Source: Henriciella sp.
Lineage (GTDB): Bacteria > Pseudomonadota > Alphaproteobacteria > Caulobacterales > Hyphomonadaceae
Reading direction: 5' to 3'
Assembly: GCA_029238175.1 (NCBI GenBank)
Contig: JAQWGO010000050.1
Span: 1-64,000 of the forward strand
DNA length: 64,000 nt
The notes beneath the pieces were generated by a model. It did not search any database. It was not told the DNA's origin and was given only the letters and a program-made list of their open reading frames with translations. Position numbers and translations under genes: made by a program. Numbering within the stretch: position 1 is the first letter of the stretch; each line of letters starts with the position of its first letter. Shown piece by piece: positions 37,872 to 53,512 of this stretch.

Positions 37872-37946
37872 TGGCAGGTTCGTGCTTTTATTATGAGACG
37901 CGACAATAAGAATGAGGGCCGTTGGTCCTGCCATTTGGGAAGAGAC

Positions 37947-38657
37947 ATGAAACGCCGCGAAAAGAAAAGTGAGAGCCTGGATATCCGTCTGCCATATGAG
38001 CAGAAACGGGAATTCATGGATGCCACCCGCAAACAGGGTGAAACCGCATCCGAAGCTCTAAGGCGTTTTATTGCTGCTTACACTGAGGAAGCGCGACTGA
38101 CCGAGAAAACAAACCCGGTTCAGGAGATTAGAATGACCCTTGCTCGCCACCGCCTTAAAACCCTTGCTAGCGCCACCGGCGCGGCCATTGGCGTCTTTGC
38201 CATTACAGCCCTGCCCTCAGCAGCGAATCAAACCGCTTTCGAGCGCCTCGACAAAAACCAAGATGGCCTCATTACCGAGGGTGAAATTCTTCCCGGGGAA
38301 GATGCGGACATTATCGCGAAACTCGACACAGACGGCTCGGGCGGCGTCAGCCAAGCGGAGTTAGAAGCTGCGGGAAACAAGATCGTCATTCACAAGAGCG
38401 AAAGCACGACCGGTGACGACGACAAGGAAATCGTGCGCAAGAAAGTCAAAATCATCGAGTTCAGCGATGAACCTCGGGACGGCGCAGCAACCAAAATGAC
38501 TAGCAATGTCGAGAAGCGCGTTATCGTCAAACGTCTCGGCGATAAGGAATTGTCTCAAGAAGAATTAGACGCCTTGATTAAGGAGGCACTCGAAGAAGCG
38601 GGCGTGGACAGCGACATTGATTTCGACATCGATATTGAAGAGATCATCGAGGAATAG
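37947..38657 (+). CDS. RHH-like domain + TM/signal helix + EF-hand protein
   Basis: SLDIRLPYEQKREFMDATRKQGETASEALRRFIAAY (RHH-like); hydrophobic segment; DKNQDGLITEGEI and DTDGSGGVSQAEL EF-hand loops. Confidence 0.8.
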   Translation: MKRREKKSESLDIRLPYEQKREFMDATRKQGETASEALRRFIAAYTEEARLTEKTNPVQEIRMTLARHRLKTLASATGAAIGVFAITALPSAANQTAFERLDKNQDGLITEGEILPGEDADIIAKLDTDGSGGVSQAELEAAGNKIVIHKSESTTGDDDKEIVRKKVKIIEFSDEPRDGAATKMTSNVEKRVIVKRLGDKELSQEELDALIKEALEEAGVDSDIDFDIDIEEIIEE

Positions 38658-38720: not shown

Positions 38721-38794
38721 GAACTCGTTTTCGGTTTTCTTTCAGGTCTGATCAGGGCTCGATGTGTGGGTCCGACGGGAGCCTTGGAAAAAGC

Positions 38795-39420
38795 ATGACG
38801 AAGAAGCGTATCGAAAAGAAAACTGACATGATTGAAGTGCGCATGCCGCACTCCAAAAAAGAGGCCTTCAAAGCCGCATGTGAAGCCGAAGGCATCACGG
38901 TCAGTCATGCCGTACGTAGCTTTGTTGATGCTTACCTCAAGCGCTCGCGCCGGATGAAAATCCAACGCATCACAAAGGATGTCTCAATGACCCTTATTCG
39001 TAACCCGATAAAGACCACATCAAGCCTTGGCGCCGTGCTCGCAGCAACAATTACTGCGATCGCATTTTCGGCCACGCCAAGCGCCGCAGAAAACTATGTA
39101 GCCCCCTCAACCTAACTACTATAGAGTATCCAGCCGAGCTCGCTCTACAGGGCGTTACGGCGGCGTGTGAGGCGCGGTTTGATATTGCGCCTAGCGGCAG
39201 AGTAGAGGGCGCCGTGGACGTAGACTGCACCCATGACGGTTTTGACCAAAGCGTCAGAGCCGCCGTCTACACGCTAGAATATGATCAAAAAATAGTCGAC
39301 GGAAAAGCCGTTGAACAACTTGACGTTGTCTATCCGTTTGAATTTGAGATCGTCACCTTAGATGGGCCGGTTGATGATTTCGCGGAACCCAACCTAACAG
39401 GCCCTATTGAGGCTGAGTAA
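38795..39420 (+). pseudogene. RHH-like domain + TM/signal helix + TonB C-terminal-like domain, interrupted by a 1-nt frameshift
   Basis: First part stops at 39115; continuation in the -1 frame LNLTTIEYPAELALQGVTAACEARFDIAPSGRVEGAVDVDC...FEI from about 39106 to 39420. Adding one C to the CCCCC run (about 39101-39105) restores one ORF. Confidence 0.65.
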
Positions 39421-40648: not shown

Positions 40649-42991
40649 TTAGTTGATTGAAACGGATGCGCCGCTTGAGAGGTCTTTACTGACTTCTTTT
40701 GGATTGCCGCTGACCCGGACAGCAGATCCACTTGAGGCATCAACATCAACACGGTTTGAAGCATAAACGCTGATTGAAGATCCGCTGGAGGCGTCAACAT
40801 TGGCACGGCTGCACTCAAGCTTGTCCATTCTAACAGATGAGCCTGATGAGGCATCCAAGAACAGTGTCTTACAGGCCCCTTCAAGGGTTAGTGCAGACCC
40901 ACTTGACTCATCAACGCGCAGATCACCGGCAACAACACTGCCTTGGAATGATGATCCTGATCCCGCATCAACGCTCTTCAAAGACTTTGATGACGCGTAG
41001 ACCGTTAGTTTCGGGCCTTGATTGCCATACGAATTATGCTTGCCTTTGCGGTATACTTTTAAAGTCCGGCCTTCGACTTTGACATCAACATGATCCCAGC
41101 TACCACGCTCAAGCTTGGCGGTTACCGACGCATTGGGGTCTTGAGTATAAACAACTGAGAGGCCACTACCAACTTCGACTTTGTCGAAAGACTTCGTGCC
41201 AAAGTCACGTGTTTCTGTACCTGAGACCATCTTTGCGCTACTCGCATCGCTATAAGCAGCTGAACTCGCATAGCTATAAGCAGCTGAGTTACGCTCTGAA
41301 CGCTTTTGGGCGCGCTCAACTTGACGCTCAGCTTTCTCTGCCGCGCGCTCTACTTGGCGCTCCGCACGCTCAGCATCGCGTTCAGCCTTCTCAGAAGCGC
41401 GCTCTGCATCTCGTTCAACGCGTTCCACTTGAGCTTCGACCAGCATCTCAACCCTTTGAGCCCATTCATCGGCGCGCGCTTCAATACTATCTGAATGTCT
41501 AGCCGCCCAAGCTTCGATCATGGGCTCCATATCTTCACCCCAAGTCTCAGCCTGTTGCTCGACGAGCTCTCCCCAAGCTTCCATTTCTTCGCCCCAGGCC
41601 TCCATATTGGATTCCCACGCCGCATAGGCTTCACTATTCTTAAAACCCTCAAAGTCCTCTGTGTTTAAGGACATATGAAAGCTGCTCCCATCCTGATCCA
41701 TGCTCATACCTGGCAAGGCGGGGAGAGCTGGCATTTCAGGCATAGGAGGCATAACGGGCATATCATCTGTTGAGAACTCAAACGTCTCTCCGTCGACGGT
41801 CACTATAAATGACATTTTTCCATTATCTTCGACAAAAGTGCTTGTCTCTGTGCGGCTTTTTTCACCGCCATCAAGTTCCTGAGCGACTGAAGAAGCGGTT
41901 GCGAAAACGGCGCCAGCGCCAAGAGCGACCGCAAGGGTGCCACCAAGCAGGCGACTGCGTAGGGAGGGAGTTGGATTCGTCATCATTATTAGTCTTTCTT
42001 TTATAGGATGAGCGAGGGTTAAGCTCGCGGCAGCGATCCGACGATCTGAGGGACGGGCAAGACGCGCTGCTTTGACCAACGTACGGCCATAGGCAGCAGG
42101 CGACAGCTTGGCCCGATTAATAACATCCGCATCACAAGCAGACTCTTGGTCTGTGCGGAAGGCGTGCAATCCAAGGTGGACAAGCGGATTGAACCACTGG
42201 GTTGCGGCAATGATACGCGCGGCTTGGAAAGCCCAAAGGTCGCGGCGCTTAAGGTGCATAAGCTCGTGAATGATCGCATCGCGGCGCTCACCAATTGTAT
42301 AGTCATCCTCAAACCACATTGGCAGCAGAATGACAGGGTTCTTGAGTCCGGTCACAAGCGGGCCAGAGCAAAGAAGACTGGCACGAACTTCCGGCACACG
42401 CTTCAAGCCAAGCTGGCGAGCGATGCGAACGGTTTCAGTAGCGGTTTCTTCGTTTGCGGGCTGGGAATCATCCTCGATCAACTGCAAGAATTGGCGCTGT
42501 TGATAGATAGAGCGTCCGAGCCAGAGGACCGTCCCAGCAACCCAGACGATCGTCAGGATCAGGGGCGCCTGGACCAGGACGGCCTCTAGCAAGCTTGTTC
42601 CAGAGGTTGCAGCCTCTGTCGTTGTTTGAATGAAAGTCGCAGCAGGCTCAAACGCGCGCTCAGGCACTGCTGTTGCGGGCTCTGCAGCAATCATTTCGGC
42701 GGGATCAGGCGACGTATTGAACACGATGGCCGGCGCAGTGAATTCATTTGGGGTTGCAGAACTTGGCGTTCCCGGTGTCCATCTCAGCAATCCAGATAGC
42801 GACCAATTGCCAGGCAAAGGCGGCATCACAAAGCGCACAAGCGGCAAGGCCCATAGCAGGTAGCCAGCCTTAGCACCGAAGCGGCGCGAGAACGGCTTTC
42901 GGACAACCAATACTAACGTGATCAATAATCCGACGGCGAATGTTGTGCGCAGGGCTTCCTGCACGACTGGGTGAAATTCTGTCCAGCTCAT
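40649..42991 (-). CDS. BlaR1-like M56 metallopeptidase fused to coiled-coil stalk and GIN/DUF2807-like C-terminal domain
   Basis: IIHELMHLKRRDLWAFQ (HExxH), N-terminal TMs, ERDAERAERQVERAAEKAERQVERAQKRSER coil, C-terminal repeated SSGS-type beta-helix DASSGSSVRMDKLECSRANVDASSGSSIS. Confidence 0.85.
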   Translation of the reverse strand: MSWTEFHPVVQEALRTTFAVGLLITLVLVVRKPFSRRFGAKAGYLLWALPLVRFVMPPLPGNWSLSGLLRWTPGTPSSATPNEFTAPAIVFNTSPDPAEMIAAEPATAVPERAFEPAATFIQTTTEAATSGTSLLEAVLVQAPLILTIVWVAGTVLWLGRSIYQQRQFLQLIEDDSQPANEETATETVRIARQLGLKRVPEVRASLLCSGPLVTGLKNPVILLPMWFEDDYTIGERRDAIIHELMHLKRRDLWAFQAARIIAATQWFNPLVHLGLHAFRTDQESACDADVINRAKLSPAAYGRTLVKAARLARPSDRRIAAASLTLAHPIKERLIMMTNPTPSLRSRLLGGTLAVALGAGAVFATASSVAQELDGGEKSRTETSTFVEDNGKMSFIVTVDGETFEFSTDDMPVMPPMPEMPALPALPGMSMDQDGSSFHMSLNTEDFEGFKNSEAYAAWESNMEAWGEEMEAWGELVEQQAETWGEDMEPMIEAWAARHSDSIEARADEWAQRVEMLVEAQVERVERDAERASEKAERDAERAERQVERAAEKAERQVERAQKRSERNSAAYSYASSAAYSDASSAKMVSGTETRDFGTKSFDKVEVGSGLSVVYTQDPNASVTAKLERGSWDHVDVKVEGRTLKVYRKGKHNSYGNQGPKLTVYASSKSLKSVDAGSGSSFQGSVVAGDLRVDESSGSALTLEGACKTLFLDASSGSSVRMDKLECSRANVDASSGSSISVYASNRVDVDASSGSAVRVSGNPKEVSKDLSSGASVSIN
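41241..41288. repeat. 24-bp in-frame tandem repeat x2
   Basis: CTCGCATCGCTATAAGCAGCTGAA / CTCGCATAGCTATAAGCAGCTGAG (22/24 identical). Confidence 0.85.
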
Positions 42992-43356: not shown

Positions 43357-43397
43357 GGGGGCAACCTCCTACTGAATACGCGACTCTTATCGCAATC

Positions 43398-43413
43398 GAC
43401 TACAGTTGTGGTC
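43398..43413. promoter_or_regulatory. BlaI-like operator
   Basis: GACTACA-GT-TGTGGTC inverted repeat, close to the TACA-N2-TGTA bla/mec dyad. Confidence 0.55.
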
Positions 43414-43508: not shown

Positions 43509-44228
43509 ATGTCCTTACTCACGCGCCGCATCTCTAGAGTCCACAAAATCGTCGGCCTGGTCGTTGGCATTCAACTCTTCTTCTGGACCGTCAGTGGCCT
43601 GTTTTTCACGCTTTACCCAATTGACGTCATTCGCGGCGACCCTTGGCGCCCAAAGATTGAACATGGCTCGCTTGAAAAGATGACCGTTGCTGTTGATGCA
43701 AAGGCCGCTGCTGCGAAAGTTGAGGGTAACTGGCTGGGTGCAGAATTGAAACCGTTTCTGGATCGCCCCGTCTGGCTAATCAGCACAAGTGAAACCAGAG
43801 CGATGGTGGATGCCGAAACAGGAGAGCTTTGGTCGCCGCTAGATCCGGTTTCGTTTCGCGCACTACAACGTCGCTTTGCAGACAGCGAAGGTAAAACGCA
43901 AATTCCGGGCAGGAATGCGACGGCGACCTATCTTACAAAATCGGCACCAAGAGAATATGGCGGCGCCCTGCCTGCTTGGGTGATTGAAGACAAAACCACA
44001 CAGCAAAAGATCTATTTTGATGCAAACACCGGCGCTGTGAAAGCTGTCCGTACAACCAATTGGCGAATCTTCGATGTCTTATGGCGCTTCCATATTATGG
44101 ACGTGACAGGTGAAGATCGCTTCAACACGTGGTGGATGAAACTGTTCGCCTTCTTAGCGCTGACAATGGTTTTGAGCGGGTTTGTCTTGATTATAGACCG
44201 GGTCAGAAAAGGCCGATTGCTGCGTTAG
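43509..44228 (+). CDS. PepSY-domain membrane protein
   Basis: RRISRVHKIVGLVVGIQLFFWTVSGLFFTLYPIDVIRG, C-terminal TM. Confidence 0.8.
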   Translation: MSLLTRRISRVHKIVGLVVGIQLFFWTVSGLFFTLYPIDVIRGDPWRPKIEHGSLEKMTVAVDAKAAAAKVEGNWLGAELKPFLDRPVWLISTSETRAMVDAETGELWSPLDPVSFRALQRRFADSEGKTQIPGRNATATYLTKSAPREYGGALPAWVIEDKTTQQKIYFDANTGAVKAVRTTNWRIFDVLWRFHIMDVTGEDRFNTWWMKLFAFLALTMVLSGFVLIIDRVRKGRLLR

Positions 44229-53472: not shown

Positions 53473-53512
53473 TTATCGAATAACGATAACATCCAAAAAG
53501 GCTTTCAGTCAA
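53473..53512 (-). promoter_or_regulatory. sigma70-like promoter with overlapping 17-bp dyad
   Basis: Minus strand TTGACT-N17-TTATCGTTATTCGATAA. Confidence 0.4.

Follow-up and report, generated by a model that had tools for sequence, protein, structure and literature searches.

The window analyzed here, a 64,000-nucleotide stretch of a contig from the marine bacterium Henriciella sp. (Hyphomonadaceae), carries on its reverse strand a repressor gene, blaI, that overlaps by 4 bp with the gene of a 780-residue membrane protein, in which an M56 protease is joined through a long stalk to a GIN (DUF2807) domain (Table 1). The host genome is a 2.85-Mb MAG that is 95% complete. The original prediction had described this protein as a BlaR1-type M56 protease that lacks a penicillin-binding domain, carries a GIN-like segment instead, and is encoded next to a BlaI repressor; the searches described below agree with it on all of these assignments.

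Table 1. Positions of the genes, protein segments, and predicted operators in the window
Feature	Position	Strand	Basis or remark
M56 protease-coiled-coil stalk-GIN (DUF2807) fusion, 780 aa	40649..42991	(-)	ten further genomes share fusion
Peptidase_M56 domain, residues 14-337	41981..42952	(-)	Pfam E 3.6e-45; phmmer alignment to BlaR1 8exp
HELMH zinc motif, residues 242-246	42254-42268	(-)	within Peptidase_M56
Fourth transmembrane helix (TM4), residues 348-366	41894..41950	(-)	hydropathy 1.80; chain expected periplasmic beyond
Small membrane-proximal beta unit and Pro-rich loop, residues 383-441	41669..41845	(-)	AlphaFold strands
Long helical stalk, residues 454-575, Trp then Arg/Glu-rich coil	41267..41632	(-)	AlphaFold helix, Trp spacing test
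GIN/DUF2807 beta-helix domain, residues 590-780	40652..41224	(-)	Pfam E 6.3e-26, AlphaFold, Foldseek, alignment
blaI, winged-helix repressor, 122 aa	42988..43356	(-)	Penicillinase_R E 2.1e-33; MecI E 8.8e-18
Predicted BlaI operator GACCACAACTGTAGTC	43398..43413	(-)	same place in all relatives examined; overlaps -35-like TTGACC
Place of second tandem operator, degenerate in window	43373..43388	(-)	copy in relatives lies 25 bp downstream
PepSY/PepSY_TM protein, divergent from blaI	43509..44228	(+)	Pfam; may share operator region

The N-terminal part of the fusion protein matches Peptidase_M56 (PF05569) with 154.8 bits against a Pfam cut-off of 31. In a phmmer alignment with BlaR1 (8exp), its residues H242, H246, and E283 coincide with the BlaR1 zinc ligands H201, H205, and E242, and D287 coincides with D246; the roles of the zinc-site residues in BlaR1 have been described (PMC9834060). 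TM1, TM3, and TM4 are visible in the hydropathy profile, TM2 falls below the threshold, and a helix at residues 40-55 was modeled by AlphaFold. BlaR1 has an N-out/C-out topology with its sensor at the C-terminus (PMC9834060), and we infer the same topology for the fusion protein. As Pfam finds no penicillin-binding domain and the NCBIfam model blaR1_generic scores 95 bits against a cut-off of 400, the beta-lactam sensor is absent, and strict membership in the BlaR1 family therefore fails. The segment 'AASLTLAHPIKER', which lies at a suitable distance from R333, is a candidate counterpart, by analogy, of the BlaR1 autocleavage site S283-F284.

AlphaFold was run with nine sequences, and the periplasmic part was also folded alone. 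The membrane part of the fusion protein was modeled poorly (pLDDT <50). Beyond it, the small beta unit comprises strands at residues 383-389, 392-399, 402-407, 430-434, and 437-441 (pLDDT about 50-75) and, in the model of the periplasmic part alone, is followed by a single helix of ~120 residues (about 454-574). Tryptophans occur in the stalk at positions 459, 466, 473, 484, 495, and 510; the spacing of 7, 7, 11, and 11 between residues 459 and 495, which is as would be expected for the core positions of a coiled coil, is equaled in its number of 7/11 pairs by 0.05% of coil shuffles. The regular Trp spacing pointed out in the original prediction is thus real, but a Trp-rich, charged coil is no peculiarity of the fusion protein. 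It is an ancestral stalk, and the proposal that the coil itself is a novel sensor was rejected, as similar coils occur in GIN-less homologues.

The C-terminal domain matches DUF2807 (PF10988) at residues 602-764 with 91.7 bits against a cut-off of 24.2. The ladder of D(A)SSGS motifs, from which a GIN domain had been predicted, corresponds to beta-helix rungs of the form D-x-SSG-S that recur about every 19 residues, and the whole segment is confidently predicted to be a beta-helix (pLDDT about 90), not a disordered tail. Its Cys pair, C707/C727, is invariant in the alignment of the fused proteins. In a Foldseek search of the PDB, the protein matched the DUF2807 structures 3pet, 4ygu, 3lyc, and 3jx8 and also BlaR1 (8exp), and the best matches, 3pet, 4ygu, and 3lyc, are DUF2807 'putative adhesins'.

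The repressor scores 115.5 bits with Penicillinase_R (cut-off 22.6) and aligns with MecI along its whole length. At the place of the BlaI/MecI cleavage bond, N101-F102 in S. aureus BlaI, it has Q98-L99, and the surrounding motif VA-Q/H/Y-LAD is kept in the BlaI proteins of all relatives. A predicted operator, GACYACA-NN-TGTARTC, lies at a fixed distance upstream of blaI in every relative examined. Tandem operators 25 bp apart are usual before blaI in Henriciella, in other genera, and in a second family, the first copy overlapping the -35-like hexamer. The site at 43398-43413 is the only one with no more than one mismatch in the window's genome. The divergent PepSY gene is a weak candidate for a conserved BlaI target, as another gene intervenes in several relatives. 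The same genome encodes a second M56 protein, fused to an M23 peptidase and adjoining another BlaI-type gene (G000:C12:57401-58801, or L052:7402-8802); this gene is preceded by the palindrome core TACATATGTA without the GAC/GTC flanks.

The fusion was found in 10 of the 28 other Henriciella genomes, nine times at full length and once ending at a contig edge, with 55-68% identity. In closer pairs, dN/dS of the GIN part is 0.04-0.11, and all segments are under purifying selection. Because ten further genomes carry the fusion and dN/dS is low, an assembly or frame artifact was ruled out. Unfused Henriciella homologues have the same protease, TM4, and helical stalk, and terminate in a small conserved domain with two cysteines, for which Pfam gave no match. 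The Cys-pair domain also terminates the orthologues in other genera and in another family and is therefore the older form. On the evidence of these comparisons, the ancestral Cys-pair domain is replaced by GIN within Henriciella, with the protease, TM4, stalk, BlaI, and operator kept.

In the GIN tree, the domains of the 11 fused proteins all group in a single clade (100/99), and the M56 parts of these proteins nest within Henriciella in the M56 tree. The fused proteins are monophyletic in 6% of the M56 bootstrap trees, with the unfused G012 inside or beside the fused clade; as the M56 tree could not place G012, it is only the GIN tree that shows a single gain. Capture of the domain from a neighboring standalone Henriciella GIN gene is unsupported, as the fused GIN domains are a clade of their own with no clearly placed sister group. 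The sampling took in 398 genomes of the order, 385 of the class (by DUF2807 matches in long reading frames), and 399 of the phylum, and all M56-DUF2807 proteins among the matches listed came from a single Henriciella clade. A widespread fusion is not borne out by these samples, and the view that this is no common, described architecture was upheld. Within the open-access literature we found no paper that deals with an M56-DUF2807 fusion or with the targets of BlaI in Hyphomonadaceae, and none reporting experiments with M56 proteins of the family to which the fusion belongs. The protease and the repressor are of known families; neither the GIN fusion nor the regulon was found described in open-access papers.

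The operator was then sought in 29 Henriciella genomes. Exact consensus matches away from blaI were found at ten places, eight of them just upstream of a standalone GIN gene in fused genomes (G001, G003, G007, G010, G014, G015, G024, and G026). This gene, which lies near rpsD, encodes a protein with a signal peptide. In the two remaining fused relatives, G022 and G028, the site upstream of GIN departs from the stricter pattern at two positions. Overall, 10/10 other fused genomes have the operator (0-2 mismatches) in front of the standalone GIN gene, about 86-103 bp from its ATG. This site adjoins a strongly conserved promoter element, and the sequence farther upstream has diverged; sites with at most two mismatches appear in at most 0.75% of shuffled GIN upstream regions. 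No operator was found at the standalone GIN genes of the 14 unfused Henriciella genomes (10/10 versus 0/14, Fisher p 3e-6, for a trait of single evolutionary origin in genomes that are not independent cases). The two GIN genes of the window's genome (G000:C60) are likewise without an operator, the best site having 6 mismatches. The second blaI operator has also been lost there. As the operon's own operator is the only one left, only autoregulation is supported in the window's genome, and the wider circuit seems to be a property of the sister species that the window species lost or never had. These two GIN genes are in tandem (G000:C60:10354-11964, or L051:6354-7965), the first being closest to the Hyphomonadaceae type of other genera and the second of the usual Henriciella type.

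Other genes are preceded by the operator in unfused genomes. A one-mismatch site lies directly before a TonB-dependent receptor gene in the subclade G004, G013, and G017 (L160:1643, L165:1818, and L166:1890), where it abuts a TATYG-N5-CRATA element, a marker of GIN promoters; the same 16-mer is also present in G020. In G005, the start of a gene for a PF00144 serine hydrolase of the beta-lactamase family (L164:1944-3152) is overlapped by an exact operator. These two kinds of site suggest a rewiring of BlaI targets in the course of the genus's evolution. The inverted repeat TTATYG-N5-CRATAW has 9-18 distinct sites per Henriciella genome, compared with 0-1 for a reversed control pattern, and, less strictly matched, is present at every standalone GIN promoter examined (window 53473-53489; G000:C60:10293-10309; L053; L144-L152).

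We consider it fairly probable that the locus encodes a BlaR1-like protease/repressor switch with a periplasmic GIN-on-stalk sensor, which regulates its own operon and, in relatives, controls a GIN protein. The M56 domain would be a membrane zinc protease facing the cytoplasm, and TM4 would lead to the periplasm, where the small beta unit and the ~120-residue coiled-coil stalk would bear the GIN beta-helix. A change at this cap, such as a partner or surface bound or lost, would be transmitted through the stalk and TM4 to activate the protease; the active protease would cut BlaI near Q98-L99, and the cut repressor would leave the operator and turn on the blaI-protease operon. Signaling from protease to BlaI is supported by homology. 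In B. licheniformis, however, BlaI has been proposed to work with a cytoplasmic coactivator, and protease action alone may therefore not suffice. In the ten sister genomes, the same operator would also control the separate secreted GIN protein, so that sensor and product would carry the same kind of domain, which suggests that both belong to one feedback circuit. The domain swap and the matched operator are read most simply with the GIN cap as input module and with a GIN protein among the outputs in most fused species. The claim of a protease-repressor pair with a novel sensor needs to be narrowed accordingly in scope: the pair does have a different end domain, but what is new is the GIN cap only, and its sensing role is one we infer. 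The predicted BlaI operator, and its occurrence at the standalone GIN gene in ten sister genomes, did not figure in the original prediction.

A more specific version of this circuit, which we put forward tentatively and regard as a possibility, is a loop in which like senses like. The GIN cap and the secreted GIN protein may bind to one another or share an envelope ligand, and the switch would gauge free GIN protein or GIN-occupied surface and adjust production through the cutting of BlaI. Such a loop would have arisen in one Henriciella clade by the end-domain swap together with the operator at the GIN promoter, and would have decayed in the window species.

The GIN domain might instead be an effector, the M56 protein acting as an inner-membrane anchor that displays an adhesive or scaffolding beta-helix and signals through its other parts, such as EL1 and the stalk. 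DUF2807 proteins are adhesins in Porphyromonas (PMC10949514), and since the stalk and the beta unit are present without GIN in relatives, the switch can work GIN-less. However, the BlaR1 sensor sits at the C-terminus, where the old Cys-pair domain was replaced, and it is in fused genomes alone that the standalone GIN gene has the BlaI operator; we therefore regard an effector role as unlikely. An assignment as sensor of beta-lactams or peptidoglycan damage, in which GIN would bind wall fragments and the targets would be beta-lactamase-like genes, would fit the kinship with BlaR1 and the exact operator at the PF00144 gene of the unfused G005. It is nevertheless very improbable, given that the fusion protein has no penicillin-binding domain and that neither the window's genome nor the scanned fused genomes showed a beta-lactamase-like target at an operator.

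TM4 could also be an internal signal peptide, after which signal peptidase would cut, so that the gene would yield two products, a protease in the membrane and a stalk-GIN protein that is either free or anchored by a lipid. Every homologue has an Arg-rich start, a short hydrophobic core, and an end of small residues at this place, and in nearly all Henriciella a Cys follows TM4 directly in a lipobox-like TASC. Against this, the Cys is missing from other genera and from the window, which reads SVA|Q, internal signal peptides of this sort are rare, and the sensor stays attached in BlaR1; we hold such a cut to be improbable. In the window (about 41894-41950), the absence of the TASC Cys is owing to a three-residue gap.

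The sensing switch that we favor shares with the BlaR1-BlaI and MecR1-MecI systems of Gram-positive bacteria (8exp; PMC9834060) an HExxH...E M56 protease, a TM4 leading to a C-terminal extracytoplasmic domain, an overlapping BlaI-type gene, and a TACA/TGTA-type palindromic operator at its own operon. In contrast to BlaR1 and MecR1, the Henriciella protein has no beta-lactam-binding domain but a GIN domain on a coiled-coil stalk, the target in relatives is a GIN gene and not a beta-lactamase, and the cleavage position of BlaI reads Q-L instead of N-F; identity with BlaR1 in the structural alignment is only about 18%. The unfused M56-BlaI pairs of Henriciella and other Hyphomonadaceae (for example L018, L021, L035, and L050) are orthologous in protease, TM4, stalk, BlaI, and tandem operators, but end in the Cys-pair domain, and the operator is missing from the standalone GIN genes of these genomes. 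The standalone secreted GIN proteins (G000:C60; 3pet, 3lyc, 4ygu) share fold, rungs, and, for the most part, the Cys pair with the fused GIN domain, but possess a signal peptide and no protease.

The Toastrack domains (DUF2807/DUF4097/DUF2154) of PSP/Lia envelope stress systems (PMC11237479) belong to the same superfamily, are likewise C-terminal to transmembrane helices, and are linked to a transcriptional switch. In Henriciella, however, GIN is paired with an M56 protease and BlaI, neither M56 nor BlaR being mentioned in the text of that paper, and is expected to be periplasmic. Toastrack domains, DUF2807 included, have been predicted to be intracellular (PMC11237479), which counts against a periplasmic GIN; conversely, the fusion would be a case against that general prediction. 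The LiaG equivalog model scored 24.5 against 285 bits on the fusion protein, and no PspA, PspC, or LiaF partner genes were seen among the neighboring ORFs at the locus.

GIN/DUF2807 is a widespread domain without a clear biochemical role, and the signal of M56-BlaI pairs beyond Gram-positive bacteria is largely unknown. In one gene family, and within a genus that has near relatives of both kinds, the predicted sensor was exchanged naturally and the repressor's targets changed to match, so that the stimulus of GIN and the modularity of M56 sensors can be tested directly. Two neighboring ORFs of the window (37893-38657 and 38762-39115) look as if they begin with a ribbon-helix-helix N-terminus followed by a hydrophobic helix, and the former continues with EF-hands recognized by Pfam, an odd combination.
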